A stretch of 64,000 bases of DNA. Origin: Singulisphaera sp. GP187. Lineage in GTDB: Bacteria; Planctomycetota; Phycisphaerae; Phycisphaerales; SM1A02. The stretch spans positions 1 to 64,000 of the forward strand of contig CAMBOV010000008.1 of the NCBI GenBank assembly GCA_945869475.1. The letters run 5' to 3'. Positions 587-36,128 of this stretch are shown in pieces; position 1 is the stretch's first letter; each line of letters opens with the position of its first letter. The position numbers and the translations under genes are program-made. The notes beneath the pieces were generated by a model. It did no database searches. It was not told the DNA's origin and saw only the letters and a list, made by a program, of their open reading frames with translations.

Positions 587-2284
587 TCAACGCTGACTGC
601 GCCGAGTTGCCTCTTCGTAAACGCGATCCATCGCTCGCCGGAAGATCCACGCGCGTTTCGACGCGTCCTTCTCGACTTCCCCTTCCGCGAGCGCGAGGCG
701 CAGGCTTTCGACGGCATCGTTTCCAACAACATCGGATGCAAGATCAATGATCGCGCTCACTGTCACCTCGTAAATGGCGGCACACGCTGCGGGGTTGCCA
801 TCGTTGAACATCGGGGCGCCTCTCTCAGTCGCGAGTTCCACAAGACTAGAAACGCTCAGAGCAGATGCCTTCATCGCTCCCGCTGGCATGTCCTTAGCCG
901 TTGATGGCGCGGGGACGAGCACGCGATCGATGATGTGAATGATGCCGTTGGATGCTTCGACATCAGCCATGATGATTCCCGCGCCAGCCACTGTGATGTT
1001 CCCGTCAACCAGCGCGAAGGAGACTGCTTCGCGACCGAGCAGCGTCCTCGCGGAACGCTGGGTGATCATGTCGCTGCGTCGGATGCGGCTGGGGATCACA
1101 TGTGCGCTCAGCACACTCGCCAGTTGTGAGGGATCCGCCATCAACGCCTTGATCGTCTCTTCGCCCAACGCGGCGAACGCTTCATTCGACGGGGCCAACA
1201 CCGTCCAAGGTCCCTCGTTTGCACTTCCGAGTTGTTCCGCAAGACCCGCGGTTACAACCAACTTAAGCAGTGTGGAAAGTCTTGGATCCTGGCCGACGAC
1301 CTCGGCAACTGAACGAGTTTCGGGAATCATGACGCGATCGATCACGTACACGACTCCGCTATCAAATGGAACATCCGTCTTCAGAAGCGAAGCGCCCGCG
1401 ATCTTCAGCGCTTCTCCGTCGATGACTAGGTTCTGGCCCGACAGCGCAAGAACTCCGCGTCGCTGCAAGAGGGAGCCTGAATCGATGGCCATTGGAAGGA
1501 TGTGATTCTTCAGAATCGCTTGCAGCGTTGCCCGTCCCGCCTCGCTCGTCAAGAACTTCACTTTGTCGGCAGGAATCGCAGCAAAGGCCTCGTTGGTGGG
1601 AGCGAAGATCGTGACGCGACCGCCGGCTGGCAGTTGCAGTCCGGAGAGTTCGACGAGTGAGAGCAGCGTTGTCAACCCAGCGCTCTTCGCAACGCTCGCC
1701 AAGTCGGATCGGTTTGCGGGCGCGTCCACATTGGGGCCCATCGCCCGAACGAAATCGATGTCAAGTTGAAATGCGCCCGGCTTCTTGTCTGCGAGGGTGA
1801 CACCAATCGACTCGACACGCGCTGGGGTGAGTTTGGGAGCGTTCGGTACAAGACGGCCGAAGCCGTAGAGACGGAACTGCTCGAAGGGCAGCTCGAGCGT
1901 GACCCACTCGCCAGCCACGGTGTCAAAGTTCATCTGAAAACTCCCGGCCATCATGCGGACATCCGAGCAGCGCACATCAAACTGATAGGTTCGGCCGTCG
2001 CCGCGGACTCTCGCTTCGATGCCGGTGGCGCCCTTGAGTGACGCCTCAGGCAGCGTTGTCTGGATCTGCGAGAACCCGCCGTTGTTCTCGAGCGACAACT
2101 CACCAGAAAACCTGAGAATGCCCGCTTCTGGTTGCGTCACGCGACCCGTCGAGCGACCGCCCATGACTCCATCGAGCACGGTGCGCCATCCAGCCACACC
2201 AGTATCAAAATCAAGGTTCACAGATTGAGCACTTGCGATGGCGCAGAGAGAAAGTGTTGTTGCGACTACGAGAACTTGCAGCAT
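587..2284 (-). CDS. Secreted CIA30-like + two fasciclin (FAS1) domain protein
   Basis: 565 residues. A signal peptide (about 1-19, ending IASAQS) is followed by a CIA30-like beta-sandwich (about 22-182; NLDFDTGVAGWRTVLDGVMGGRS) and two FAS1 domains (about 193-320 and 325-455). Each FAS1 domain has the H1/H2 signatures (TIFAPTNEAF and TVLAPSNEAF; VVYVIDRVMIP and IIHIIDRVLVP). A C-terminal helical tail of about 95 residues is unassigned. The start has a good ribosome site, AGGAG six bases before the ATG. FAS1 domains usually mediate adhesion or cell-surface interaction, and the CIA30 fold binds carbohydrate-like or protein ligands. The CIA30-FAS1-FAS1 order is unusual. It sits in an operon with SOUL, peroxiredoxin and SRPBCC genes; a second FAS1 gene lies at 17651. 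Confidence 0.85.
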   Translation of the reverse strand: MLQVLVVATTLSLCAIASAQSVNLDFDTGVAGWRTVLDGVMGGRSTGRVTQPEAGILRFSGELSLENNGGFSQIQTTLPEASLKGATGIEARVRGDGRTYQFDVRCSDVRMMAGSFQMNFDTVAGEWVTLELPFEQFRLYGFGRLVPNAPKLTPARVESIGVTLADKKPGAFQLDIDFVRAMGPNVDAPANRSDLASVAKSAGLTTLLSLVELSGLQLPAGGRVTIFAPTNEAFAAIPADKVKFLTSEAGRATLQAILKNHILPMAIDSGSLLQRRGVLALSGQNLVIDGEALKIAGASLLKTDVPFDSGVVYVIDRVMIPETRSVAEVVGQDPRLSTLLKLVVTAGLAEQLGSANEGPWTVLAPSNEAFAALGEETIKALMADPSQLASVLSAHVIPSRIRRSDMITQRSARTLLGREAVSFALVDGNITVAGAGIIMADVEASNGIIHIIDRVLVPAPSTAKDMPAGAMKASALSVSSLVELATERGAPMFNDGNPAACAAIYEVTVSAIIDLASDVVGNDAVESLRLALAEGEVEKDASKRAWIFRRAMDRVYEEATRRSQR

Positions 2285-2369
2285 GGGAAACTCCTGATGG
2301 CGGGCGGTTTGCTCGCGGTTAAAGATACGAATTCGCCAGTCCTAATCGGCGAGTGATATTGATAAGAAA

Positions 2370-2891
2370 TTAGCCTGCATTCGCGCTACCAAACAGCCGC
2401 TCGAGGGCTTGTGCGCGATAGTCGAAGATCCTGCGCACATCGCGCTTGACGATCAGAGGATGACTGATCCAATGGAGCGGCGCGCGAAACTCAACCTCAT
2501 CGATCATCCGAGTCCCGTCCTTGCAGGACTCAAAGCGGTGTTCGTGGTGCCACCACTCGTACGGCCCCTTCAACTGGAGATCAACGAATCGATGCGGTGC
2601 TTCCCACTCGGTGATCTCGGTACGCCAGCGAATCGGGATGCCGTGTATTCGAATCTGATATTCGATCAACGCCCCTGCTCGCATCTCGATGGGTGTGGGA
2701 GTGAGGATCTTGAACCCCACCCAACGGGGTGTGAGAATGTCAAGATTGCGGGCATCCGAAAAGAATGCGAAGGTTTCTTCCTGCGACCTCGGGATGATCA
2801 TTTCTCGATAGATCGAGCTCAACCCGCTGGTGGGTCGTGATGGACGCGCAGGCTTCTTCATCGCGGCGTCGTCGTTTTTCTGAAGAATCAT
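2370..2891 (-). CDS. SRPBCC (START-like) ligand-binding protein
   Basis: About 173 residues. The core (from about residue 28) reads IYREMIIPRSQEETFAFFSD, then LTPRWVGFKIL and a WRTEITEWEAPHRFVD stretch. This is the usual helix-grip pattern of SRPBCC cyclase/CoxG-like proteins that bind hydrophobic ligands. The ATG at 2891 is preferred because AGAGG lies five bases upstream; a GTG at 2906 is in the same frame. There is no signal peptide, so it is probably cytosolic. It lies 48 bases downstream of the peroxiredoxin gene in the SOUL operon. Members occur in carotenoid and light-stress clusters, but the ligand here is unknown. Confidence 0.8.
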   Translation of the reverse strand: MILQKNDDAAMKKPARPSRPTSGLSSIYREMIIPRSQEETFAFFSDARNLDILTPRWVGFKILTPTPIEMRAGALIEYQIRIHGIPIRWRTEITEWEAPHRFVDLQLKGPYEWWHHEHRFESCKDGTRMIDEVEFRAPLHWISHPLIVKRDVRRIFDYRAQALERLFGSANAG

Positions 2892-2939
2892 GAGTGCCTC
2901 TGTCACAGCAGTTGGGGGTTGGACTCGGAGCGAGTCGGT

Positions 2940-3503
2940 CTAGAGCTCACACACGATCGCGTTGAAGTCAACACGATCCGCGGCGGTCTGGTGGATGTAG
3001 CGACGAAGCACCACGCCTCGGTGGATGATCACGGTGCCGGGCATCTGGAACGGGTCTCCCTGAATGCGTCCAATGCCCTTGCCTCGCAGGAGCCCCCGCA
3101 AAGCGGATGAGATCACTCGCAGACCAAACAGTTGGCCGAGTCGACCGCGGCCGATCTCAAGGGCCTTGTATGCGAGCCGATCGGGGTCAGCAATCCACGC
3201 CACATCAAAGACCCCGTAGCGCTCACCCAGCCGCCGCAGGGGCAGCGTGGAATCAGACATGCCGATCACCGCAACGCTAAGGCCTTGTGCCGAAATCGCC
3301 TCCCGCGCCATCGCGAGATCGGCGAGGGTCTGGCGACAGAATGTGCAGCCTGCGTGGCGGAGCAACACAGTCAGGGTCGGCCGCTCATCAGTGATCTGAC
3401 TCATCGTCCGGCCCGCATCATCGCTTAGGCGATCCAGCGCGGCCGTCAGGGTGATTGGGCATTCGCCGAGCGCCGCATCGATCGTCTTGCTGCTCGTGTT
3501 CAT
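2940..3503 (-). CDS. Peroxiredoxin-like (AhpC/TSA-type) thioredoxin-fold protein
   Basis: 187 residues with a thioredoxin-fold redox motif, LLRHAGCTFCRQTLADLA (CxxC at about 53-56). It continues with the VIGMSDST and AWIADPDRLAYKALEIGRG segments typical of the AhpC/TSA_2 family also found in SelL-like proteins. It starts inside the stop codon of the upstream SOUL gene (ATGA, four-base overlap), so translation is probably coupled. A paralogue of this domain, with CSFC, is fused to a membrane domain at 6654-7592. Peroxide or lipid-hydroperoxide reduction is the family expectation; the substrate is not known. Confidence 0.85.
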   Translation of the reverse strand: MNTSSKTIDAALGECPITLTAALDRLSDDAGRTMSQITDERPTLTVLLRHAGCTFCRQTLADLAMAREAISAQGLSVAVIGMSDSTLPLRRLGERYGVFDVAWIADPDRLAYKALEIGRGRLGQLFGLRVISSALRGLLRGKGIGRIQGDPFQMPGTVIIHRGVVLRRYIHQTAADRVDFNAIVCEL

Positions 3504-4348
3504 CGACTTGCTCCAGTTGCAGTGCCGCCAACTTCGGTTGAGGTCAATCGATATCCCTTCGATTTCCTCACGGGAACTTGCACCTCAGACCACTTGTTCC
3601 ACCAGAAAAGTTGGGGGCCGTTGTAGCAGAGCGATCGCCAATCTCCCGCGGCCTCCCACTGAGGGTTCGCTGCCAGCCAATTCTCAATTTCTTTCATGCC
3701 GCTTTGCGTAAGCGACATCGAGTAGGACCCCTTCATACCAATCGCCACGACCGTCACGGACTCGCAATCGCGCACGACGACGCGTCCTTCGACGCCGGTC
3801 TGATTGAGTTCGGGCTGCCGGTACAGAAATGCCATAGACCAGGATTCCGGTCCACTCTCATCGGACGCCTGCATACCGCGGTAGTTCATCTCCACGGGTG
3901 ATGTCATGGCGATGTCGTGCTCTTTGATGTGATTGAACAGTGGCCAAAATGTCTGGTTCATCCCGGCGTCAGGGTCGCCAGAACCAGCGACCTCTGCCAA
4001 CCTGACCGACGGGTAGGTCTTGAGGTCAATGGCGCCGGGCGGAGTGGGTCGTGGGTAGCCAACTGGTAACGGCGTATCCACACTGCACGGTCCAGCGCGG
4101 TAGTCAGCATCGGACCCCTTCACCTTCGCCGCGAGATCACCACCGACGCGCACGGAGGTTCCCATGGTCGGCGCTTCATCGGGCACGGTCAATCGTTCCA
4201 TAGGGTCCTCTCTGGTGTTCGAGGAAGGACTCGCTGCGGACGAGCCTGCCGCGTTTTCGCCTGCTGAATCGCAACCGATGGCAAGGAGCAGGGACGTCGC
4301 GAGTGCGCAAAGTCCCATCATGATTGAGCAAGACGGTATGGTCGACAT
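3500..4348 (-). CDS. SOUL/HBP heme-binding-family lipoprotein
   Basis: 282 residues. The N-terminus has a lipoprotein signal with lipobox LAIGC (Cys about 26), so the mature protein should be lipid-anchored outside the cytoplasmic membrane. The SOUL domain (about 100-275) is recognised from YPSVRLAEVAGSG, NQTFWPLFNHIKEHDIAMTS, PVEMNYR and the C-terminal WWNKWSEVQVPV. SOUL-family proteins bind heme or tetrapyrrole in eukaryotes and are poorly studied in bacteria. It is the first gene of a five-gene minus-strand operon, divergent from the LitR-like regulator. AGAGG lies five bases before the ATG, supporting this start. Confidence 0.88.
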   Translation of the reverse strand: MSTIPSCSIMMGLCALATSLLLAIGCDSAGENAAGSSAASPSSNTREDPMERLTVPDEAPTMGTSVRVGGDLAAKVKGSDADYRAGPCSVDTPLPVGYPRPTPPGAIDLKTYPSVRLAEVAGSGDPDAGMNQTFWPLFNHIKEHDIAMTSPVEMNYRGMQASDESGPESWSMAFLYRQPELNQTGVEGRVVVRDCESVTVVAIGMKGSYSMSLTQSGMKEIENWLAANPQWEAAGDWRSLCYNGPQLFWWNKWSEVQVPVRKSKGYRLTSTEVGGTATGASR

Positions 4349-4577
4349 GGGTACCTCTAGGATAATCGGTCAAAACGTTCATTATGACTCTATCAGATAA
4401 AAGGTACAAGTTCAATGGAATCGCACAAAAAAAACAGGAAAAATAAGTCGCTATCAGCGTGCTTGACTCTGGTCAGTGGATGCTTTAAACTCATACAAAT
4501 CGTTCTTTTGTCTCCGCTCACAACAGGCAACAAGGAGACTCAAGAGTGGGCCAGATTCGATTCGTTCCACGGCTAAA
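4349..4577. promoter_or_regulatory. Divergent promoter region between SOUL operon and LitR-like gene
   Basis: 229 bases, AT-rich compared with the surroundings. For the plus strand, TTGACT (4463-4468) and TAAACT (4486-4491) are spaced by 17 bases and fit a sigma70-type promoter. That promoter would start transcription near 4498, upstream of the ATG at 4578. For the minus strand, TTGAAC with TAGAGT 17 bases on (about 4391-4419) is a weaker candidate. The strings TAGGATAAT (4358-4366) and TCAGATAA (4393-4400) recur in the same order in the folE leader. They are candidate operator parts, which is an inference. Confidence 0.5.
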
Positions 4578-5471
4578 ATGACAATAAACCCTCGAATTCG
4601 CAAAAAATTGACCACCCGCCAGTTCGCCCAGGCACTTGGTGTCAGTGAGTCGTCCGTCAAGCGTTGGATCGACGACGGCACGATCGATGCGGACCGCACC
4701 GCGGGAGGCCATCGGCGGATCCCCATGGCGTCGGCGGTCCGCTTTATGCGGCTGAACCGCATGAGCCCACAGCACCCTGAAGTCTTACCGCTCACTGCAG
4801 CACCCTCGCTTGGATCAGTCGATGTGCACGCGGCGGATGAGTTCTACGAGGCCTTTGTCGCCGACGACGCTGTACGGGTTCGAGCGATCATGACGGGCAG
4901 GTACATGTCCGGGGCAGACATCGCCTCGATCGGAGATGGGCTGGTTCGCCCTGTTCTCGAGCGTTTGGGTGAACTGTGGAGACATGATCCCCAAGGAATT
5001 CTGGTCGAGCATCGCGCCGTTGAAACATGCATTCGAGCGTTGACCGAGCTCGTCGCGTGGCTGCCTGCGATTCCGCCAGGAGCGCCGACCTCGGTTACCG
5101 CGGCCGGACCCGACGACCCGTACCTGCTGTCCCCGATGCTCGCATCAATGGTGCTCCAGGAACAGGGGATTCAGGCGCGCAACTTGGGGCCGTCAACACC
5201 GCTCGAGACCATTGAATTGGCCACGGTGCGCTATGGCGCAATCATGTGCAGCGTGAGCGTGGGTACGGTCCAAGCGCGGCACTGTCATGCTGCATGGATC
5301 AGGCTCGCGGACCGCTTAGGAGCGAACCAAATCAGGCTCATTGTCGGGGGTCGGGGCGTAGGATCGCTCCCCAACGAGTTCCTGAGCCGCGCGCGCGTGT
5401 GCGGCTCAATGATTGAACTCGGTTCCTATGCCGCCGGTGTTGTTGGGGGCGTCAGTTCTGCCCGCGAGTGA
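4578..5471 (+). CDS. LitR/CarH-like MerR regulator with cobalamin-binding-type domain
   Basis: 297 residues from the ATG at 4578. An in-frame GTG at 4476 would overlap the likely promoter, so it is disfavoured. Residues 10-60 are an excisionase/MerR-type winged helix (TTRQFAQALGVSESSVKRW, then TAGGHRRI). About 85-165 is the helical cap typical of B12 modules, carrying W134-x9-E144-H145, the W-x9-EH signature of AdoCbl photoreceptors CarH/LitR. About 172-290 is the Rossmann-like B12-binding part. The expected lower-ligand motif E/DxHxxG reads DPYLLS (about 180-185), so His is replaced by Tyr. Family members repress light-inducible carotenoid, photolyase, folE and lipid genes in the dark. Whether this one still binds B12 is open. 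Confidence 0.85.
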   Translation: MTINPRIRKKLTTRQFAQALGVSESSVKRWIDDGTIDADRTAGGHRRIPMASAVRFMRLNRMSPQHPEVLPLTAAPSLGSVDVHAADEFYEAFVADDAVRVRAIMTGRYMSGADIASIGDGLVRPVLERLGELWRHDPQGILVEHRAVETCIRALTELVAWLPAIPPGAPTSVTAAGPDDPYLLSPMLASMVLQEQGIQARNLGPSTPLETIELATVRYGAIMCSVSVGTVQARHCHAAWIRLADRLGANQIRLIVGGRGVGSLPNEFLSRARVCGSMIELGSYAAGVVGGVSSARE

Positions 5472-5797
5472 ACGGGGCGAAACAAATCGTCGACAGACTT
5501 CGCACGGAGCGATGCCATGAAGAGATATACCAGCGTGATGATGTTGCCAAGCAGGCACAACCCTACAAACCACGCAAGCGTGCGCGGGATACTCCGCTCG
5601 CGATGCGCGATCCACCCTGTCATGACAAAAAACCCTAGGTACAGGTCGACCATCGTCGCCACGCCCCAACGAGTGTCCACGGTCGCCAGCAACCCGGCCC
5701 AGAGCGACATTTCCATGAAGGACCACACGAAGAGCACTAGCAGTGCTGCGATACCGAGGGTGGCGGCGAATGAAATCAAGCGTATCGGGCCCATCAT
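5426..5797 (-). CDS. DUF1475-like small membrane protein
   Basis: 123 residues, starting at the ATG at 5797 (AGGAG six bases upstream); an upstream in-frame extension is less likely. There are three or four membrane helices: LISFAATLGIAALLVLFVW, the VDLYLGFFVMTGWIAH region and FVGLCLLGNIITLVYLF. The RWGVATMVDLYLGF stretch matches the bacterial DUF1475 pattern. Its function is unknown. It ends convergently with the LitR-like gene, overlapping it by 46 bases, and may be the tail of the lipid-modification run to its right, separated from it by the IS-derived repeat. Confidence 0.7.
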   Translation of the reverse strand: MMGPIRLISFAATLGIAALLVLFVWSFMEMSLWAGLLATVDTRWGVATMVDLYLGFFVMTGWIAHRERSIPRTLAWFVGLCLLGNIITLVYLFMASLRAKSVDDLFRPVHSRAELTPPTTPAA

Positions 5798-5920
5798 CAC
5801 TGTCTCCTGCAATTGGATTTCGTTACTGAACCGCTCGTGCTCGGAAGGAAAATCGAATGCTATCAAGGCAAAAACAGTTCGTGTGGATTTCGCCATTCAT
5901 CGGTGAGGCACTTGCGATAT

Positions 5921-6112
5921 CTGGTCTGGTCCACGATTTATTGAAATACCAATGTGGGAGATTTGAAGATAGTGTCTGACATGAAGAAGCTTCGGTTTTC
6001 GTCAACCAACGTCTCGTAGCGCAAGGAGGGCGAAGCCCGACCGGAACGGCGGGTGCCATCCGCGTCGATGAGGAGCGCTGCTTTCTTGTCGGCGGACAAC
6101 GTGGAATCCAAG
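5921..6112. repeat. IS3-derived terminal repeat, copy A (inverted relative to 15112-15303)
   Basis: Bases 5959-6112 align without gaps to the reverse complement of 15112-15265, with 132 of 154 bases identical by eye (86%). The match continues more weakly to about 5921, where CTGGTCTGG pairs with the outer edge of the other copy. Copy B is the end of a recognisable IS3-like element, so copy A is probably a solo remnant. It contains a broken frame starting MKK, which is how many IS3 orfA proteins begin. Bases 5798-5920 and 6113-6240 on either side hold nothing I can support. Confidence 0.8.
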
Positions 6113-6240
6113 ACATTCTTTTGGATCCTCGGGCGTCTTGAATACAAAACGCACGCGCAGCACCGACGCAGTTTGCTCTTGGAGGCTGCGTGATTAAACC
6201 ACAAAATTATGTCAAAAATGGGGAGCCTGTACGCTTCTGG

Positions 6241-6651
6241 TCATCCCATCATCATGATGCAGATCCCTCGCGCACTCCAAGCCGCGGTACGCCACCAGTT
6301 GGTGGTGACGAGGCGGCGATGCGCGTGCGCGTCGAAACCCGTGACCAGAGTGTTATGCAATGGAATCTGCACGAACCATGTGGATATCCAATTCAAAGCT
6401 AAGAGCGGCAGGCTGGCCAGTAGCCACGGATCGCGAGTGCCTTCAAGTACTAACAAGACCGCGGTTGCCAACTCAGCGAGCATGAGTGGTCCAACCACCA
6501 ATGTAATCTGGCGAGTATGCCGCCGATGGTAAGCGACGAAATGTTCGCGTCCAACCTGAGCGAACAGCGGATAGTGAACCATCTGGATGGTCCAGATCAA
6601 ACCCACAAGGGCCCAAGTAGCTGCGTAATGAACAGGGAGGAGCCATTCCAT
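6241..6651 (-). CDS. Small polytopic membrane protein, unknown function
   Basis: 136 residues with about four predicted membrane segments (e.g. AATWALVGLIWTIQMVHYPLF, LTLV-like PLMLAELATAVLLVL, LLASLPLLALNWISTWFV). It has conserved-looking polar motifs: VHYPLF, HRRHT, QIPLHN and WWRT. The start codon lies two bases after the stop of the upstream membrane-peroxiredoxin fusion, so the two are translationally coupled. It resembles the small membrane proteins found in LitR-linked clusters, but I do not recognise a characterised family. Confidence 0.75.
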   Translation of the reverse strand: MEWLLPVHYAATWALVGLIWTIQMVHYPLFAQVGREHFVAYHRRHTRQITLVVGPLMLAELATAVLLVLEGTRDPWLLASLPLLALNWISTWFVQIPLHNTLVTGFDAHAHRRLVTTNWWRTAAWSARGICIMMMG

Positions 6652-6653
6652 GA

Positions 6654-7592
6654 TTATGCGGGCAAGCGACTGAGGGTTACATAGTTAGGGCGATCCGCCA
6701 CATCGGTATGAATGAAGCTACGCACGACCCGAGCGTGATGAAGGAGAAAGACGCCTGGCATCTGTGTGCCATCACCATCGAGTGCACCGGGGTGATGACC
6801 AACGAGCAGCGACTTGAACCCACGCCACCACACGCTGAATCCGAGCAACTGTGCGACCCGTCCACGGCGCAGTCCGAGCCCACGATAAAGTCGGCGCTCC
6901 GGGTCTGCGATCGCGGGGAGGTCGCTGAGTCCATAGTGAGCAGTAAAGGCTGCAAACGATTCCGCACTGCCCATATGTATGAGGGCAAGACGGGTGCCGT
7001 TTTTCTCAATAGTGTGGCGGCTCGCCGCGAGATCTGCGAGCGCTTCACGGCAGAAGCTACAGCCTGAATGGCGCAGGAACACCAACAGCACCGGATGTTT
7101 GTTGGAAAGATCCGCGAGGCTGCTGCCGCTCGTAGTGAGCGTCTCCGTCAGCAGCGTGGATTCATCGGGCAATGTGTCTGCGCCAGCATCGCGCAGATAC
7201 TCCGTCCAAGCGTGTCTGAGGATGAGCGCGAAAGGCACCCACCAAATGAGATCATTGGTGATGCAGTTCAGCGCAAAGGCCCACGGCAGCTGCTCGGTCC
7301 ACAGCGCTTGGATCATGCCGAGTGGACCAAAGACCTTTCCGAGAAACCCCACTAGCACGATCGGCCAATGTCGCACGGGATCAAAGGCGGCGATGGCATA
7401 GCCGAGGCCGTAAACGCCCACGATCATCCCGATGCATTGCCAGAACTGCGGGTAATTGGGTTGCGGCATCTGCAACCAATCAAAAATCGCCCCAGGAAAC
7501 AGCACTGCGAAGCCGCCCCAGAGCACGTTGTAGAGTCCGGCGGCGAGCAAGACATTGCGCATCCAGCGCGGAGAGGCAGAGCGGGTGTTCAT
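6654..7592 (-). CDS. Membrane-anchored peroxiredoxin-like fusion protein
   Basis: 312 residues. Residues about 10-130 form a four-helix membrane domain (LLAAGLYNVLWGGFAVLFPG, CIGMIVGVYGLGYAIAAF, a VGFLGKVFGPLGMI helix and LNCITNDLIWWVPFALIL). Residues about 150-310 are an AhpC/TSA-like thioredoxin fold with LVFLRHSGCSFCREALADLA, related to the protein at 2940-3503 over its whole redox domain. The fusion implies peroxide or lipid-hydroperoxide reduction at the membrane surface. It lies 15 bases downstream of the cfa-like gene and two bases upstream of a small membrane gene, which fits a role in protecting modified lipids. The reductant is unknown. Confidence 0.85.
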   Translation of the reverse strand: MNTRSASPRWMRNVLLAAGLYNVLWGGFAVLFPGAIFDWLQMPQPNYPQFWQCIGMIVGVYGLGYAIAAFDPVRHWPIVLVGFLGKVFGPLGMIQALWTEQLPWAFALNCITNDLIWWVPFALILRHAWTEYLRDAGADTLPDESTLLTETLTTSGSSLADLSNKHPVLLVFLRHSGCSFCREALADLAASRHTIEKNGTRLALIHMGSAESFAAFTAHYGLSDLPAIADPERRLYRGLGLRRGRVAQLLGFSVWWRGFKSLLVGHHPGALDGDGTQMPGVFLLHHARVVRSFIHTDVADRPNYVTLSRLPA

Positions 7593-7607
7593 AGGGATAT
7601 ACAGGAG

Positions 7608-8732
7608 CTACCTAAAAGGCGCATATCCACCAGGCAGTCCACCCTTCGAGTATACAATCTGGTAAAGCTGCACCATACGGGCTCGAAAGAGCGCCTCACA
7701 GCCATTTAGATAATACATCCACATGCGATAGAACTCATCGCCATAGTTATCTTTGAGGGTTGGCCACGCACGATTAAAGTTTACATCCCAGGCGTGCAGG
7801 GTCTTTGCGTAATCGGCTGAGAAATTGTGCAGGTCCTCGATCACCAAGCCCTCACGAGCAGGGCGAATAAGCTGCGGCAGGTTCGGGATATATCCGTTCG
7901 GAAAGATCCTGCGCTGCAACCAAAGAAGGAAGTGATCTAGGGGGGTCGCAGAGCGCCGTGAAAAGCTCTCGGCCGAGATTACCTGCAGTGCAAAAAGCCC
8001 CTTGTCCTTTAAGCAGCTCTCAACCTTTGAGAAAAAGGTCGGGATGTTTCTGCGCCCGACGGCTTCAATCATCTCGATAGAGACGATGCGATCAAAAGAA
8101 CCGTGATACCTCTGGTAATCCTCGAGCACAATCTCAACATCGAGCCCCTGACAACGCTCGCGCGCCAACTGCGCCTGCTCTTTCGATACGGTCAGCCCTA
8201 CAACCGATACGCCGTAACGCTTGGCCGCAAACGCCGCCAAGTTGCCCCACCCACATCCGATATCCAGCACCCGCATACCAGGCTTGAGTTCGAGCTTCTT
8301 ACAGAGCAGATCCACCTTATTGAACTGGGCCTGATCGAGATTTTCGGCGTTGTGCCAATACCCACAGGTATAGCTCATCGTTGTGGCATCGAGCATGGCA
8401 GCGAATAGATCGTTTCCGAGATCGTAGTGACGCTCGGCCACCTCGTACGCACCACGCCCTATCTGGGAGTTCTTGACTCGATCCTGCAACAAATACCAAA
8501 GAAATCTCGGGCTGAACTTCTTAAAAGATGCATCAATGCTTGGATCGTTCGTTACAAAACGATACAGCAGCTCCGTCAGGTCTTGAGTCGCCCACTCGCC
8601 ACGCATATAAGCCTCGCCGAGCCCATACACGCCGCCCCTCCGAAAGATATCAATAGCCGGTTGCGGCAGGTTCTGATTGGCCGGCTGCGCCGAAGAAGCA
8701 ACTCGCTGTAAAAGTTCTGCGGGTCTCTGCAT
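7608..8732 (-). CDS. cfa: Cyclopropane-fatty-acyl-phospholipid synthase family methyltransferase
   Basis: 374 residues, near the usual length of about 380. It transfers a methyl(ene) group from SAM to unsaturated acyl chains of phospholipids at the membrane. SAM motif I is VLDIGCGWGNLAAFAAKRYG (about 152-171), preceded by AERHYDLGNDLF and MSYTCGYW. SIEMIEAVG holds the catalytic-region Glu, and the C-terminal MWMYYLNGCEALFR is typical of the family. It starts one base after the stop of the DUF1365 gene, giving the conserved order SDR-FAD-DUF1365-CFA. Relatives in such operons can make furan or other modified fatty acids rather than cyclopropanes, so the exact product is uncertain. Confidence 0.93.
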   Translation of the reverse strand: MQRPAELLQRVASSAQPANQNLPQPAIDIFRRGGVYGLGEAYMRGEWATQDLTELLYRFVTNDPSIDASFKKFSPRFLWYLLQDRVKNSQIGRGAYEVAERHYDLGNDLFAAMLDATTMSYTCGYWHNAENLDQAQFNKVDLLCKKLELKPGMRVLDIGCGWGNLAAFAAKRYGVSVVGLTVSKEQAQLARERCQGLDVEIVLEDYQRYHGSFDRIVSIEMIEAVGRRNIPTFFSKVESCLKDKGLFALQVISAESFSRRSATPLDHFLLWLQRRIFPNGYIPNLPQLIRPAREGLVIEDLHNFSADYAKTLHAWDVNFNRAWPTLKDNYGDEFYRMWMYYLNGCEALFRARMVQLYQIVYSKGGLPGGYAPFR

Positions 8733-8733
8733 G

Positions 8734-9615
8734 CTATTTCTTAGCCCCGCTGTTTTTTATTCCGCCGCGACACCCTCGACCCGGACCTTGACAGGCTCGC
8801 ATAAAGGCGAGTACTTGAAGTCGGACACGGTGAATGATATTCTGTCGTGAGCGGATGGTATATCGATTTGCAGGGTTCGGTTTAGGGTATGGCGTCGCCC
8901 CGACCTTGAAATACAGTTTGAGAGCCTCCCCATGAATGCGGGGCATCGTCATAAATGAGGTTATCGGGTATTTTCTAATCGTTGTCAGTACGGTGCGTGC
9001 GCTTAAGGGCTGCGCATCTCCCTCTAATAGAGCTGAAAAAACTGCTGTGCCCTCCCGATCTAGGTCAACCTGAACCGAGAGCTTCTCGCCCTCCCGTCTG
9101 AGGGTAACTGAGTATTCCCCCCGGCGATCAAAGAAGGGCGAAACGAAGAACTCCTTCGGGAATCGCCACGAAACTGGCATCAGGGTTGGCTCACGAGCTA
9201 GTTCACTTACAAGGGGATAGATATGGCTCTCTCCAAAGGTATTACTGACCTGCGTAATCAGTCCAAGTACACGCCCCAACTGATCGAAGCAGGCAAAGAA
9301 GCTCACGGGATTAAAAACATACCCAAAGTAACGGGGCATGGTGATCAATGTAATGCGGTCTGGGCGAATAGGTTGTCCATGCGCCTTGAGAATACGCTCA
9401 ACCTTCTCGCGCAGTCCCCCAGTACCCTCTAGGTAATCAGCCGATCTGATACTGAAAAGCGCTCTCTTTTCGTATCCAAAGAGCCTTGGCGAGATCGAGA
9501 GCGTTTCTAGTTCATCTAGATCAAGCTCAAAGGTAAAGATCGGATACGAGAAGGAATGCTCCTTAGGCCCCGCACGCCAGTGATCTACCCTGCCCCATGA
9601 GATCTTTGACCTCAT
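8734..9615 (-). CDS. DUF1365 family protein
   Basis: 293 residues covering the full family: GRVDHWRAGPKEHSFSYPIF near the start, LFGYEKRALFSIRSADYL, then the diagnostic MPRYFGYVFNPVSFFACFD and ISFMTMP-like TSFMTMPRIHGEALKLYF. Its function is unproven; it co-occurs with FAD amine-oxidase-like and CFA-like genes in lipid-modification operons. Its ATG overlaps the stop of the upstream FAD gene by four bases, and CFA follows after one base. The basic tail (GPGRGCRGGIKNSGAKK) may contact membrane or nucleic acid, which is a guess. Base composition is AT-richer than neighbours outside the block. Confidence 0.92.
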   Translation of the reverse strand: MRSKISWGRVDHWRAGPKEHSFSYPIFTFELDLDELETLSISPRLFGYEKRALFSIRSADYLEGTGGLREKVERILKAHGQPIRPDRITLITMPRYFGYVFNPVSFFACFDQLGRVLGLITQVSNTFGESHIYPLVSELAREPTLMPVSWRFPKEFFVSPFFDRRGEYSVTLRREGEKLSVQVDLDREGTAVFSALLEGDAQPLSARTVLTTIRKYPITSFMTMPRIHGEALKLYFKVGATPYPKPNPANRYTIRSRQNIIHRVRLQVLAFMRACQGPGRGCRGGIKNSGAKK

Positions 9616-10886
9616 AATGAAAGCCCCATTGAGTTTGCTACATCGAGCGCGGACCGTACAGCATCCTCATGAAAGCCGTGGTACATATATGCGCCACAGA
9701 AATACGTATGGCGCGTGCCGTTAAGCCCTCGTAGGGAGCGCTGACTCAGTGGTGAGAGCGGCGTATATATAGGGTGGGTGTATTCAACCTCGTAAAGTAT
9801 CAGAGCGGGATCGATATCGTCGTGACAGTTTAGGGTAACGAAGTAATCTCGCGCCGCCTTCAGGTTTTGCAACTTATTCATATAGTAGGTGATCGCTACA
9901 GGCGTATCACGCCGAGATTCTACGCGACGGCGATAGTTCCACGCCGCCCAGAGTCGTCTATTGGAACCAAGTACCCCTTTGTCGGTATGCAGCACGGTGC
10001 GATTTTTACTATAGCGCCACGACCCGAGCGCCCCTTGTTCTTCAATGCTGGGGTCCTTGAGCAACGTAAGTGCCTCATCCGCATGTGTTGCGATTACAAC
10101 ATCATCGAATCGTTCAGGCGCGGCACCCTCTAGACCAAGCGTGACACCGCTCTCATCACGCCAAATGCCCTGTACAGAGCACCCCAACCGCACCTCACCT
10201 GAAAAGCGCTTCCTAAAAGCCTTCACATAGCTCTGGCTGCCCCCCACCACCGTCTGCCACTGCGGTCGCTTACGGAGCTCCAGCATGCCGTGGTTATGAA
10301 AGAAGGTTGCAAATGAGAGCATTGGAAACTCAAGCGCATTTGAGTCAGGGGCAGACCAGATCGCGCCAATCAACGGCGCGAGGTAGTGATCAAAGAAGTA
10401 CTCACTTGTGCCGAGCTTCTTTAGATAATCTCCGAGGGGCGTATCCTCGAGTTTTCCACGTTTTAAATCGGCAAGAACGCGCCGATTAAAGCGAAACTGC
10501 TCTAGGATCATCCGAACAAACCTTCGATTTAAGAGGTTCCGAGGAGCAGCGAGGAACTCCTTTATAGAGGGCCCCATGTACTCCAACCCTGTGTGCTCAC
10601 ATGAGAACCCAAACGACATATCTGAGGGTTGTCGTTGTATTCCTAGCTGGTCAAGTAGCTTATAAAAATTCGGATAATTTCTTGGATTGCAGACGATAAA
10701 TCCGGTGTCGACAGAGAGCTCTGGATTGAGCGGATCATCGACGGTACGGGTATTCGTATGCCCCCCGAGATAATCGTTCCTCTCTAGCAGGGTTACCCTG
10801 TGCGCCTGAGATAGCACATGCGCCGCGGTAATACCTGCGACTCCACCCCCGACAACCAAGATATTGCGCCGTGGATCAGCTACCAC
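9612..10886 (-). CDS. FAD-dependent amine-oxidase-like flavoprotein (COG2907 type)
   Basis: 424 residues. The N-terminal dinucleotide fold is NILVVGGGVAGITAAHVL, followed by LLERNDYLGGHTNTR. The C-terminal FAD motif region reads TYFCGAYMYHGFHEDAVRSA. The family is the NAD/FAD-binding protein regularly placed with DUF1365 and CFA. It probably oxidises or desaturates a modified acyl chain, though this has not been shown for this gene. It starts with GTG at 10886 inside the end of the SDR gene (seven-base overlap) and overlaps DUF1365 by four bases. Confidence 0.92.
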   Translation of the reverse strand: MVADPRRNILVVGGGVAGITAAHVLSQAHRVTLLERNDYLGGHTNTRTVDDPLNPELSVDTGFIVCNPRNYPNFYKLLDQLGIQRQPSDMSFGFSCEHTGLEYMGPSIKEFLAAPRNLLNRRFVRMILEQFRFNRRVLADLKRGKLEDTPLGDYLKKLGTSEYFFDHYLAPLIGAIWSAPDSNALEFPMLSFATFFHNHGMLELRKRPQWQTVVGGSQSYVKAFRKRFSGEVRLGCSVQGIWRDESGVTLGLEGAAPERFDDVVIATHADEALTLLKDPSIEEQGALGSWRYSKNRTVLHTDKGVLGSNRRLWAAWNYRRRVESRRDTPVAITYYMNKLQNLKAARDYFVTLNCHDDIDPALILYEVEYTHPIYTPLSPLSQRSLRGLNGTRHTYFCGAYMYHGFHEDAVRSALDVANSMGLSL

Positions 10887-11647
10887 AACCGATCGACTAT
10901 CCTCTCGTAGATCGCATCGGGAAGGATGCGTGCAAGTTTCAGTATCCAGTTAAATGGAAATGGAAACGCGATCTCCCTCTTTCCGCGCTCAATACCCTGA
11001 CAGATAATGCGAGCTGCCTGATCGGCATCTACAATAAACGGCATATGAAAGTCGTTCTTGTCCGTTAGGGGGGTCCTGACGAAACCTGGATTTACGATAG
11101 AGATCGTCACCCCTTTGCTCTTTAGGTGAAACCTGATGCTCTCAAGGAAATGGATCATCGCTGACTTGCTTGCGCCGTACGCAGCAGCCCGTGGTAGCCC
11201 GCGATATCCAGCCAAACTTGCGACCGGGGCCAGGTAGCCCCGTTTTCTTGCCAACATTCCTGGCAGGACCGCTTCGATACAGTGCAACATTCCGCCGTAA
11301 TTAAGTTGCATAACGAAGAGGTATTCAGCGCAATCAAAGCTCTCTGGCACCGTAAAAAGGTGTGTGCCAGCGTTAGGAATAGCGAGATCTATCGGGGCAA
11401 TGTTCAACTCTATCGCCGCTACCACCTGCTTCATCTGGTCAAGATTCAGCACATCCCCGGGGAAGCTCCAAGCCTCTCCCCCCTTGGCCCGGATGCGAGC
11501 GACTAACTGCTCAAGCACCTCGGCGCGTCTGGCAGTAATGGCGAGCTTTGCGCCTCTGCTGGCCAATTCTAAGGCGAGCGCCTCCCCGATGCCACTACTA
11601 GCACCGGTCAGCCAGACACACTTACCGTTAAGATTTATTCCTGACAT
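10880..11647 (-). CDS. Short-chain dehydrogenase/reductase
   Basis: 255 residues from the ATG at 11647 (MSGINLNGKCVWLTGASSGI). An in-frame ATG at 11689 would add 14 residues before the usual family start. The TGASSGIGEAL coenzyme loop, NAG at about 90, a catalytic Ser, and YGASKSA (Tyr-x3-Lys) are all present, so it should be active as an NAD(P)-dependent oxidoreductase. It is the first gene of the tight SDR-FAD-DUF1365-CFA operon and the start of the AT-richer block. Its substrate is presumably lipid-derived by context. Confidence 0.9.
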   Translation of the reverse strand: MSGINLNGKCVWLTGASSGIGEALALELASRGAKLAITARRAEVLEQLVARIRAKGGEAWSFPGDVLNLDQMKQVVAAIELNIAPIDLAIPNAGTHLFTVPESFDCAEYLFVMQLNYGGMLHCIEAVLPGMLARKRGYLAPVASLAGYRGLPRAAAYGASKSAMIHFLESIRFHLKSKGVTISIVNPGFVRTPLTDKNDFHMPFIVDADQAARIICQGIERGKREIAFPFPFNWILKLARILPDAIYERIVDRLW

Positions 11648-11785
11648 ATCGCCCCCGAAACCCAGATTCTCCACAGAGCGCACACCCATTGATCGGACTT
11701 CGCTTTTCCAGCATCTCTAGCAAGCACTCAACAAATTTACTGCGAAGCGGCGGTTTCATGCGTCTAATGTAGCACGGCGGTCTTG

Positions 11786-13292: not shown

Positions 13293-14240
13293 TCAGGCAT
13301 CCTCCGACGAAAGCATCTGGTCTGCCACTCGGTACAGCCCGAGAAGCATGATCGGCAGCGTTACAAACACGCCTATGTAGAAGATTAAGCAGCCAGAGAC
13401 ACCGATCAGGGTTAGCAGCACGCACGATGCGAGCAAGCCCCACGGATCCTTCTCGACGATGCGCAACGCCCTCGTCAGGGCCTTGAGACCTCCTAAACGC
13501 TCACGTCCTGCGACGATGAACGCTAGGAAAGGAACTGGCAACAGAACAAGCCCAGGAATGCAGCAAAAAGCCAACCCGAGCGCGACCAATAGAGATCCCC
13601 AGAAGCCGATGATTAACGCGGGGACGAACTGTCTGAAGCCGCGGAAGACCTCTGAGAAACTCGCCTTGCGACCAGTCGTGGCTTCGTCGCGGACGCACTG
13701 GTAGAAACCAATCAGGATCGGGGCAGCAATGAACCAGAATCCGGCCCCAGGGATATTTACAGCCAACGCCACCAGCGCCGATACGAGCATGTAGAAGACG
13801 GGATTCAAACGGAATCGATCGATTGCAAACTGCACCGCATCGGATGGGCTGATCCCCTCACGGCGAACAACTACGACACCGGGTGCGGTCCCAGCCGCCG
13901 CCGCGAGTGGAGTAGAAGGAGCAACCATCGCAACTGGACGTGCATGCACGTCGATCGGCTTCCCTGGAGCGAGTGACGATAGCGCCTGCCCTTGGTCTCC
14001 GTGAAGTTCGGCATCGGAGAGAACGGGCAGCGCCGCACTCTGGGGAGGATTTTCTTCGCGAGCGGCGAACGGCAAATCTTTAACGCTTTTAGCAGCCCGC
14101 CATGGACCATCAGCAGAGGTTGATATCTCGTCTTCGTGCGCAAGGTCGCCCGAGCGAGCCATAGCGCGCAATTGGGAAGCCGTGAGCGGTCCGCTAACCG
14201 CGCGCGTCCCGAGATGACGAATGAAATATGAGCTAGGCAT
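13293..14240 (-). CDS. GYF_2 domain membrane protein
   Basis: 315 residues. Residues 1-55 are a GYF_2 domain (YFIRHLGTRAVSGPLTASQL ... GPWRAAKSV), a fold that binds proline-rich peptides in related proteins. After a linker, about 130-305 holds four to six hydrophobic segments (PVFYMLVSALVALAVNIPGA, ALIIGFWGSLLVALGLAFCC, WGLLASCVLLTLIGVSGCLI). It resembles DUF975/integral membrane proteins that accompany DUF2752. It is the first gene of the three-gene unit and ends at the edge of the IS remnant at about 14241. Confidence 0.78.
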   Translation of the reverse strand: MPSSYFIRHLGTRAVSGPLTASQLRAMARSGDLAHEDEISTSADGPWRAAKSVKDLPFAAREENPPQSAALPVLSDAELHGDQGQALSSLAPGKPIDVHARPVAMVAPSTPLAAAAGTAPGVVVVRREGISPSDAVQFAIDRFRLNPVFYMLVSALVALAVNIPGAGFWFIAAPILIGFYQCVRDEATTGRKASFSEVFRGFRQFVPALIIGFWGSLLVALGLAFCCIPGLVLLPVPFLAFIVAGRERLGGLKALTRALRIVEKDPWGLLASCVLLTLIGVSGCLIFYIGVFVTLPIMLLGLYRVADQMLSSEDA

Positions 14241-14304
14241 GTTGATCTACGCGTAATCGAGTCATTGACCTCAACACAGGTAGCGTACAGGATTCCATTG
14301 TTTA

Positions 14305-15083
14305 CAAAAGTTTGTGGGTAAATCACCCCCCACTCCATGAGGAAACTGCGTCGGTGCTGCGCGGGCGTCTTGTAGCTAAGACGCTGGGTGATCCAGTGAT
14401 TGTTGTATCGATACGCAAAGTCTCGAAGCGCAACATCGAGTTCGTCGACGGTTGCGACTCGTGTGAGCCAGAGCAATTGCTCCTTGAGTGTTCGAATGAA
14501 TCGTTCGACACAGCCGGTGCCCCTTGACTCTCGTTGGGCGACTCCTGACGAATGATGGACTCGATCGAATGCCGACGAATCGCAACTCCTCTTGAAATGC
14601 ATGCGAGATGAATTGACTTCCATGATCGTGCCGCAGTGCGACGCCTGCTGCGACGTCGCGATCGAATGTTCCGCGCGTTGCACGAATCGCTTGCCGAAGC
14701 GTGTCGATCGCTTCGTGACGCGTGGCGCGCCGTGCGGCACGCGCTCCGAGACACTCACCGGTGCAGTGATCGATCACGACGAAGACTGTCGCGCTGCCTT
14801 GATCTGTCATGCACGCAGTGCCATCGATTGCCCACATCTCGTCTGGTCGCGCTGTGACAATCGTTCCATCATGCACGCGCGGACCAGGTGATGACCGACA
14901 TCGCATCGGAGCGAGCAGATTGTTTTCTCGCCATAATCCAGCGAGTGCCTCGCCGACGAATGGCGAATTGCGCAGCACAATCTTCATCTCTTCGAGTACC
15001 TGTGTATCGGCCAAGTATGTCTTGGGTCCGCGCGTCTTCTTCGGCGTAGCACCGTACAACGCGAGCACCTTGTGTCGATGCAT
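14305..15083 (-). pseudogene. Broken IS3-type transposase (orfB)
   Basis: The reading frame from 15083 gives LALYGATPKKTRGPKTYL, then an rve integrase core with DEMWAIDGTA (first Asp), FVVIDHCTGECLG and LRHDHGSQF (second Asp). Near 14540 the frame is lost, and similarity continues in another frame with CVERFIRTLKEQLLW (catalytic Glu) and YRYNNHWITQRL. In the N-terminal part, GEALAG jumps directly to LWRENNLLAPMR, so about 30 residues normally present there are missing. With a deletion and a frameshift it cannot make a working transposase. Confidence 0.85.
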
Positions 15084-16610: not shown

Positions 16611-16783
16611 AGTGCCGTCGGAGTGATCATCGAACACGATGGCGTCGTTTTCAACCATGATCGATGGCTGATCGCCTGTTTTTGTTCTCAGATCGTGCAC
16701 GTTGGCTGGCGGACTCATCAGCGACACCTCGAATGAACGGATGGCCGTAGAAAGAAAACGTGCAAATCGTCTATTCTGTCCAC

Positions 16784-16813
16784 TTGACATCGCTGAATTT
16801 GGCGTAGGATAAT
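16784..16813 (+). promoter_or_regulatory. Promoter of folE
   Basis: TTGACA (16784-16789) is a perfect -35 box, and GATAAT (16808-16813) is a good -10 box 18 bases downstream. This leaves a leader of about 45 bases to the folE ATG. The -10 lies inside TAGGATAAT, which is followed by TCAGATAA at 16829-16836; the same pair of strings is found between the LitR-like gene and the SOUL gene. AAGGAG (16851-16856) is the ribosome site. Confidence 0.7.
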
Positions 16814-16864: not shown

Positions 16865-17590
16865 ATGTGTCTAAACAATCTAACTAATGGGCTTGCGCAG
16901 GTTGTCGGCGCAGAGCAAGGCCTCCAACTCGAGCAAAACGGATTGCCCAATGGCCTGCATGTCCTGTCAGAACGAGCCGTTGAGCCGAAACCTGCGAATG
17001 TAGATCGGACGCGGATCGAACGAGCCGTTCGCGAGATCCTGCTCGCTATCGGCGAAGACCCCGATCGTGAAGGCCTGCGCGAAACTCCGACGCGGGTGGC
17101 ACGGGCCTACGGCGAGATCTTCGCTGGCCTGCGCCAGAATCCGGCGGCACATCTTCAGTGCACCTTCGCCCAGACCTGCGATGAGGTCATCACCGTTTGT
17201 GGCATCAAGTTCTACAGCGTTTGTGAACATCATCTGCTTCCCTTCAGCGGCAAGGTGCACATCGCCTACCTGCCCGCCAACGGGCGCGTCGTTGGTCTGT
17301 CGAAACTGGCGCGAACCGTAGAAGTGTTCGCGCGTCGGCCTCAGATCCAAGAGCGATTGACCGACCAGATTGCAGAGGCGCTCACGACGCATTTACAAGC
17401 GCGCGGGGTGATTGTTGTCGTGGAGGCTGAGCACATGTGCATGCGGATGCGCGGCGTGCGATCGGTAGATGCAGCAATGACCACGATTGCACGCCGCGGT
17501 CTCTTCAAAAGCGATGCGTCCCGCTCATCCGAAGTGATGTCACTCATCAACACCATGTCGCGCCGTCGTGATGACGGCAGCGCGAATTGA
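16865..17590 (+). CDS. folE: GTP cyclohydrolase I
   Basis: 241 residues. It converts GTP to 7,8-dihydroneopterin triphosphate, the first step to folate and tetrahydropterins (and to the pterin antenna of photolyases). The zinc ligands are visible: Cys120 and His123 in [10 protein letters not shown], and Cys192 in [12 protein letters not shown]. The catalytic fold runs from about 48 ([20 protein letters not shown]) to 230. The N-terminal 45 residues are an extension without clear similarity. It has AAGGAG eight bases before the ATG and a strong promoter. A folE copy beside LitR-type genes and FAS1 suggests light-induced pterin supply rather than basal folate synthesis. Confidence 0.96.
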
Positions 17591-34860: not shown

Positions 34861-36128
34861 ACGACCTCGATCCAAGTGCACTCGCGACCCCCCTCGCACT
34901 CGCCTCACGGGTGCTCGTGGTTGATCCATTCGGCGCCCAAGGGATCGAGGGACTTCGCGCCGTTGGCTGCGATGCAATCCACAACACATTGCTGACCGCA
35001 GAGACGCTCGAATTGGCAGCACGGGACATTACGCCTGACATCTTGGTGGTGCGGTCGATGCGCGTGAGTGAAGCGATTCTCAACGCAAGCGAGCGACTCG
35101 GACTGGTCGTCGCGACTGGATCGACACTCGAGAACATCGACATCGACGCGGCGAGTCGCCGCGGCATCTTCGTCGCGCACTGTCCAGGACGCAGCGCCGC
35201 GGCAGTCGCTGAACTTGCGTGGGCGCTGATTCTTGGATGCGACCGACGGTTGCCCGATCACGTGATGGCGGTTCGCAGTGGTGCCTCGGATGACGACAAT
35301 CCCAACGAATCGGCTGGACTCGCAGGTCGCACGCTCGGCATCGTCGGGCTTGGGCAAGTTGGGCAAGAAATCGCCAAGCGCGGCGCCGCCTTTGGGATGC
35401 ACGTTGTCGCGTGGAGCCGCAACATCACAGAAGAACGGTGCGATGCGCTTGGGATCGACTACTGCGCGAATCTCGTCAATCTCGCGAAACTGTCTGACGT
35501 CGTGAGCGTCAGCGTCACCGCCAATGAAGAGTCGCATGGATTACTCGGCGACAAGTTCTTCAACGCGTTGCATGCAGGTGCGACGATCATCAATACGAGT
35601 TTGGGCGGGGTCGTGAACGAAGCGTCACTTCTGCACGCAGTGCGCACCAAAGGCATTCGCGCTGGACTCGATCTTCATGAGTACGCCACGTCCATCAACG
35701 AGCGACCGATCTTGGGACAGCTTATGAAGCAACCCGGGGTCTACGGCACGATGCAATCAGGCGCAATGACCACGCAAGCGTGCGAGGCTGTCGATCAGGA
35801 AGTCGTTCGAATCGTTCGGCAGTGGCTCGAACACGGCACGGTCAGCGGATGCGTCAATCGAGTTGGACAGAGCAGTGCCGTGACGTTGATTCACATTCGC
35901 CATCTGAATCGTCCGGGAGTCTTCGCGCACATCTTTGACGTGCTTGGCAAAGCTGGCATCAACGTCGAAGAGATGGAGAACGTGATTTGTGCTGGCGGCG
36001 AGGCGGCGATCGCACGAATCCATCTCAACTCTCCACCCACCGAGCGCGACCTCGCATCGATCCGCCAGACGCCGCACGTTTTCGGCGTCACAGTGCAGGC
36101 GATTCGACGCTCATCCAACACTCAGTGA
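34857..36128 (+). CDS. serA: SerA-like 2-hydroxyacid dehydrogenase, catalytic residues altered
   Basis: 423 residues. The Rossmann motif is LGIVGLGQVGQEIAKRGAAF, and a C-terminal ACT domain (about 350-420) begins TLIHIRHLNRPGVFAHIFDV. By homology it would oxidise 3-phosphoglycerate in serine synthesis, and it is followed by serC. Residues normally essential are changed. The catalytic Arg motif (N-A/S-R-G) reads NTSLGGVVNE, the catalytic His motif (PHIGGST) reads TMQSGAMTT, and the substrate Arg motif (RAG) reads ATGSTLENID. Either an unusual PGDH mechanism or a non-enzymatic/other role is possible. Confidence 0.88.
   Translation: MNDLDPSALATPLALASRVLVVDPFGAQGIEGLRAVGCDAIHNTLLTAETLELAARDITPDILVVRSMRVSEAILNASERLGLVVATGSTLENIDIDAASRRGIFVAHCPGRSAAAVAELAWALILGCDRRLPDHVMAVRSGASDDDNPNESAGLAGRTLGIVGLGQVGQEIAKRGAAFGMHVVAWSRNITEERCDALGIDYCANLVNLAKLSDVVSVSVTANEESHGLLGDKFFNALHAGATIINTSLGGVVNEASLLHAVRTKGIRAGLDLHEYATSINERPILGQLMKQPGVYGTMQSGAMTTQACEAVDQEVVRIVRQWLEHGTVSGCVNRVGQSSAVTLIHIRHLNRPGVFAHIFDVLGKAGINVEEMENVICAGGEAAIARIHLNSPPTERDLASIRQTPHVFGVTVQAIRRSSNTQ

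Follow-up and report, generated by a model that had tools for sequence, protein, structure and literature searches.

A multi-phylum family of CarH-related regulators with tyrosine at the cobalt-ligand position and a predicted 9-bp direct-repeat operator

The 64,000-nucleotide stretch of contig CAMBOV010000008.1 analysed here (the window) encodes a CarH/LitR-like regulator that has tyrosine where the cobalt-binding histidine of B12-dependent photoreceptors is expected, and this raises the questions of whether such a protein can still hold a corrinoid and which genes it controls. The features that bear on them are collected in Table 1.

Table 1. Features of the regulator locus and its candidate targets, in window coordinates
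Feature	Position	Strand	Basis
Probable target operon: SOUL, AhpC/TSA-like, SRPBCC, CIA30-fasciclin	587..4348	-	Pfam; operator at its start
Predicted operator, tandem 9-bp direct repeats TAATCGGTCAAAACGTTCATTATG	4363..4386	+	30.2 bits, 1st in window
Promoter-like site of regulator gene, TTGACT-17-TAAACT	4463..4491	+	Consensus match 9/12; 0.5 expected by chance
Weaker operator-like site over -10/start region of regulator's own promoter	4488..4511	+	Rank 4 in window at 13.3 bits, within shuffle range
Regulator gene, 297 aa	4578..5471	+	N-terminal HTH, four-helix bundle, Rossmann B12-type domain
Winged HTH, residues 11-51, BldC/excisionase-like	4608..4730	+	NCBIfam TIGR01764 above cut-off
W134-x9-E144-H145, adenosyl-cap motif of CarH	4977..5012	+	Sequence
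D180-P-Y182-L-L-S185, Tyr182 at cobalt-ligand position	5115..5132	+	Sequence and alignments
S227-x-G229, at SxT position of B12 motif	5256..5264	+	Column counts, spacing x41; SxS/T in most relatives
G257-G258 of B12 motif, x27 after SxT	5346..5351	+	Invariant, 143/143
Light/photo-oxidative-type cluster: DUF1475, SelL-related redox protein, CMAS, DUF1365, FAD oxidoreductase, SDR	5426..11689	-	Several recur near homologs
Operator-like site upstream of folE	16755..16778	+	Rank 2 in window at 21.9 bits, higher than any shuffle
folE promoter-like site, TTGACA-18-GATAAT	16784..16813	+	11/12 match
folE, GTP cyclohydrolase I, probable target	16865..17590	+	Pfam E 3.6e-74; TIGR00063 above cut-off

A GTG upstream could lengthen the regulator reading frame to 4476; the ATG at 4578 is the likely start, because an orthologue of 89% identity has an indel just before it. 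The N-terminal domain matched Pfam HTH_17 (E 3.5e-7), HTH_BldC below its cut-off (E 1.8e-7, 31 bits, cut-off 77) and, in a profile search, the BldC structures 6amk and 6ama (E 2e-6), and the Pfam B12-binding domain was also matched below cut-off (E 0.0027). In the AlphaFold2 model, built from an alignment of 50 sequences, pLDDT is 93, exceeding 90 in the Rossmann half, and its VIA-align comparison placed CtMerR (8jbs, Z 23.9), photocobilins (Z 22.8) and TtCarH (Z 20.2) on top, with a further match to the AppA SCHIC domain (Z 18.4). The score against the NCBIfam CarH equivalog NF052513 was 40 bits, against a cut-off of 400.

The preliminary description had reported an intact adenosyl-cap motif and, at the E/DxHxxG site, DPYLLS with tyrosine for histidine, and both are confirmed by the translation of the gene. 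In phmmer searches against the PDB, Tyr182 (codon TAC, 5121-5123) falls on the ligand histidine of CtMerR (8jbs, E 7e-22) and of TtCarH (5c8d, E 2e-11), ungapped near the site in each case. Because the profile of 50 relatives aligns with CtMerR over about 170 positions across the ligand site free of gaps (E 4e-45), no other histidine of the regulator comes to stand at the ligand position, which was the alternative to be considered. Family column counts give D-x-Y-x2-P-x41-S-x-S/T-x27-GG, with a spacing equal to that of the classic CarH motif D/ExHx2G/P-x41-SxT/V-x22-27-GG (PMC9304148). At the glycine position of this motif, occupied by Ser185 in the regulator, 126 of 143 homologous stretches have proline, itself an accepted variant in CarH proteins (PMC9304148), and the Gly to Ser change at 185 is minor.

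The replaced histidine had been described as lost; it turned out instead that tyrosine is conserved at this position across several phyla and interchanges with histidine on the tree. Homologs are found mostly in Planctomycetota, and also in Acidobacteriota, Myxococcota, Verrucomicrobiota, Rhodothermota and others, and since the homolog scan was run with HTH peptides there was no selection for the ligand motif. Among the 143 homologous stretches the ligand position is Tyr in 126, His in 11, Ser in 4, Thr in 1 and Gly in 1; Phe, though one base from Tyr, occurs in none. E144-H145 is invariant (143/143) and the Trp is present in 132. The 89%-identical orthologue has an identical DPYLL, which, together with the 126 tyrosines, excludes chance or sequencing error for Tyr182. 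Judged from these alignments, tyrosine at the ligand position is a conserved trait of a multi-phylum family and not a one-off loss.

Some variation surrounds the pocket motifs. His136 (window 4983-4985), two residues past the Trp, is shared by 74 of 107 Tyr types and might be an upper ligand; in TtCarH the light-state ligand histidine sits one residue past the Trp. One genus (L016, L021, L022 and L023) has a six-residue insertion between Trp and EH, giving W-x15-EH, and in a subclade of six loci (L024, L025, L026, L028, L029 and L030) a short deletion has removed the Trp, with EH and Tyr kept. This Trp-less subclade is reminiscent of CarA, and one of its genomes, G026 (97% complete), is without a PduO-type adenosyltransferase.

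In a tree of 124 rows from which the Tyr column was left out, histidine is scattered inside the Tyr family, requiring a minimum of 8 changes, at least 4 of them forced by starred branches. Because CtMerR and TtCarH, outside the family, carry histidine, the simplest story is a single early His to Tyr change followed by several returns, with a root that is not firm; TtCarH and CtMerR are joined there through long branches, and no interpretation is placed on that grouping. The scattered histidines are consistent with exchangeable lower-face residues, and since a single base separates a Tyr from a His codon the interchange could also be mutational. Proline at positions 181 and 205 is found, for each column, in 88 of 107 Tyr types and in none of 10 His types, and the association with Tyr182 runs in the same direction in all differing pairs; since the supported branches offer just 4 independent pairs (p 0.125), the correlation is suggestive only. 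Both columns border what we take to be the Arg-Asp dimer salt bridge of the TtCarH structure, whose Arg, presumably next to the ligand histidine, aligns with P181, so the dimer contact may differ in the Tyr types. The regulator is patchy in its own genus: matches at E 1e-3 came from 3 of the 19 genomes, of which one was weak, and most sister species are without it; it may therefore be horizontally acquired or often lost. A plasmid search returned a single weak Rhizobium match, and paired regulator copies lie close together at L092, on G224 contig 96 and on G332 contig 1.

The operator search covered the upstream regions of 80 family members, the window included. These regions are rich in CGTTCA, with 73 same-strand spacings of exactly 9 bp where 1.2 were expected, and 52 of the 80 contain at least two tandem 9-bp direct repeats (AAATCGTTC), compared with 1.1 in shuffles; the family consensus is aAATCGTTCAAAtCGTTCA. 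When a family matrix trained without this window was used to scan the 64 kb (shuffle maxima 10-18 bits), the highest-ranking site lay between the SOUL and regulator genes, 14 bp ahead of the former, on its upstream side, and in the 2.55-Mb genome only positions 4364-4381 within this site come within one mismatch of the 18-bp AWNCGTTCAWANCGTTCA. The third-ranking site, 35800-35823 (+), has 16.6 bits and falls inside the shuffle range. In relatives, sites precede the regulator as well as adjacent genes (fasciclin, folE, NAD-binding DUF2867, epimerase, ECF and FAD oxidoreductase); because the matrix derives from regulator upstream regions, divergent neighbours share these sites by construction, and the folE site of the window is independent of such sharing. 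A loose genome-wide pattern with 2 mismatches was useless (457 matches against 421 in the control), and the P. putida LitR box T(R)TACA-N12-TGTAYA gave only 2 weak matches in the window, near chance expectation and in irrelevant places. BldC sits head-to-tail on 9-bp direct repeats of the form AATTxxxxC (PMC5859096), whereas CarH operators are 11-bp repeats nnnnTnnACAn (PMC9304148); the family operator has a 9-bp period and a different sequence from the tandem 11-bp TnnACA type. Operator-based control of this gene set is, in our judgement, very probable.

The genes around the predicted sites give an indication of the signal. Across phyla, recurring neighbours of the homologs are photolyase, folE, CMAS, FAD oxidoreductase, DUF1365, SDR, DUF1295 and ECF sigma genes, and the folE cluster takes in 10 loci, one of them being the window. 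These neighbours resemble the regulon of the P. putida class II LitR, under which light induces phrB, ufaM, folE and cryB, so that analogy gives good support to a regulon concerned with light or photo-oxidation. No strong operator was found with the family matrix in the 64-kb window upstream of the cluster that follows the regulator, and no photolyase was found in the organism's own genome. Small unassigned ORFs lie between the genes of this cluster, whose SelL-related redox domain (6654-7592, -) is fused behind an N-terminal membrane-like part; the AhpC/TSA-like gene at 2940-3503 is a second such gene besides it. Further on, 13871-14758 (-) holds an ORF with an apparent C-terminal integrase-core transposase part, apparently a remnant.

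We postulate that the regulator, in its dark state, represses genes of the photo-oxidative stress response. Its BldC-like DNA-binding half would sit head-to-tail on the tandem repeats near promoters, and its sensor half, of the CarH/CtMerR type, would most likely still hold an adenosyl-corrinoid under the W/E/H cap. Below the cobalt Tyr182 would stand in for histidine, whether by ligating through its oxygen or as a non-ligating or water-bridging residue, and light would break the Co-C bond, leading to release of the DNA and induction of the SOUL operon and folE. As an overall reading this has about an even chance of being correct. We lean slightly towards a bound corrinoid, and regard a direct bond between Tyr182 and cobalt as doubtful; Mmp10 was discarded as a precedent for a tyrosine lower ligand, its Tyr being on the upper side at 4.8 A.

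The nearest solved relative is CtMerR of Chloracidobacterium thermophilum (8jbs/8jbt, PMC11796333), the best match in both sequence and fold, which shares the HTH type SESSVKRW..RTxGGHRR, the domain order, GxxW, EH and GxxxP; it carries His204 where the regulator has Tyr182, and has been shown to bind AdoCbl and to respond to light. With CarH and class I LitR of T. thermophilus and M. xanthus the regulator has in common the four-helix bundle and Rossmann domain, Wx9EH and the motif spacing, and like these light-responsive systems it is predicted to respond to light. They differ in having the histidine ligand, a classical MerR HTH and 11-bp nnnnTnnACAn repeats instead of 9-bp AAATCGTTC, and because the ligand histidine and the 11-bp operator were both looked for and not found, the regulator cannot be filed as a CarH, although it probably works like one. 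The likeness to BldC lies in the HTH, which matched HTH_BldC below cut-off, and in the 9-bp period of the predicted operator, AAATCGTTC being similar in form to the head-to-tail repeats AATTxxxxC; BldC has no sensor domain.

What the sensor half binds is the point on which other readings diverge, and the options of the preliminary description (B12 held without a histidine ligand, another chromophore, or none) were well chosen as a list, while the kept motifs and cap favour a corrinoid over heme. In favour of a corrinoid are the cap, the tail motif, the fold and the B12 economy of the genome, which encodes MetH, a MeaB-type B12 protein and a PduO-type adenosyltransferase. Co-occurrence with adenosyltransferases was rejected as a test of AdoCbl use: the PduO type is present in 78 of 82 genomes with the regulator and 197 of 310 without it, and any type in 79 of 82 and 282 of 310 (p 0.16; overlap counted by hand from two lists), which is uninformative and confounded by kinship. 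Against a corrinoid, the Trp-less subclade still has Tyr, and the mutant, HaAI-2E and CarA results given below weigh in the same direction.

The regulator could instead be a corrinoid-independent repressor in which Tyr182 fills the hole of the absent cofactor and the signal is a redox cue or is relayed by a partner, for instance a CarS-like antirepressor or a light-activated flavoprotein of the kind that switches class II LitR. This we consider rather unlikely, but it stays live because in TtCarH the H177A exchange abolishes both the binding of AdoCbl and the formation of tetramers, and because M. xanthus CarH is inactivated by H193A (PMC4557120); in HaAI-2E, Arg at the ligand position likewise goes with no binding (PMC11796333). 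EH alone proves nothing, because M. xanthus CarA keeps EH yet works without B12 (PMC9304148), a CarH relative whose cofactor signature is, as here, partly broken, although in CarA the His motif is present and the Trp absent, the reverse of the situation in the regulator. Class II LitR proteins (PplR/PmlR of Pseudomonas), CarH relatives thought not to bind B12, have a similar regulon (phrB, ufaM, folE) and are switched by a LOV partner, PmlR2 working with a short LOV protein (operator TGTACA-N12-TGTACA), and ECF sigma genes adjoin several of our homologs. Class II proteins consist of the four-helix bundle only, whereas the regulator also has a Rossmann half, predicted with good confidence; the exact LOV core motif NCRFLQ is absent from the organism's own genome and NCR[FY]LQ from the homolog loci examined; and the retention of Tyr, W, E, H, SxS/T and GG over several phyla would be unusual for an empty pocket.

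Tyrosine is a common heme ligand, and a sensor of heme or another porphyrin with Tyr182 on the iron would agree with the structural match of the model to AppA SCHIC, which has the same fold and a similarly replaced cobalamin ligand, and with the SOUL gene next to the regulator, from which a tetrapyrrole had been proposed in the preliminary description. That argument proved weak, as SOUL neighbours are clustered in only 3 loci. SCHIC, which binds heme, has lost the W/F cap and gained an eight-residue loop after the third Rossmann strand (PMC9144470); W134 is kept here, the CtMerR alignment is gap-free through that region and the regulator family has no such loop. The GG and SxT nucleotide-tail motifs would moreover be idle, whereas their retention, at exact spacing and with the adenosyl cap, favours a corrinoid, and we judge a heme sensor quite improbable. 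There is equally little probability in a sensor that responds not to light but to a corrinoid as a metabolite, to another cobamide or to another upper ligand: a kept pocket with a changed lower ligand and the missing photolyase would suit it, but the neighbouring genes are photo-oxidative and do not belong to B12 metabolism.

At the level of sequence, what began as a single unusual protein becomes a conserved family that has a predicted operator of its own. That this family consists of multi-phylum corrinoid light sensors with Tyr for His at the cobalt lower face, repeated natural Tyr/His exchange and a BldC-type domain on 9-bp direct-repeat operators is a tentative proposal, possible but short of probable. 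No description of the Tyr type was found in the open-access literature searched, which is not proof of absence, and passages of a 2025 review (PMC13331322) name His, Cys, Arg, Thr and Leu as lower-face residues, while the word tyrosine is absent from that review. In CarH the bond between His and cobalt is regarded as essential, and here a large family conserves Tyr in its place with the adenosyl-cap and tail-binding motifs kept, so that it may represent either a new mode of cobalt coordination in photoreceptors or a B12 sensor on its way to becoming a switch without B12. Close relatives that form natural Tyr/His pairs, together with a defined operator, make these possibilities directly testable, and the operator predicts targets in uncultured Planctomycetota and Acidobacteriota.
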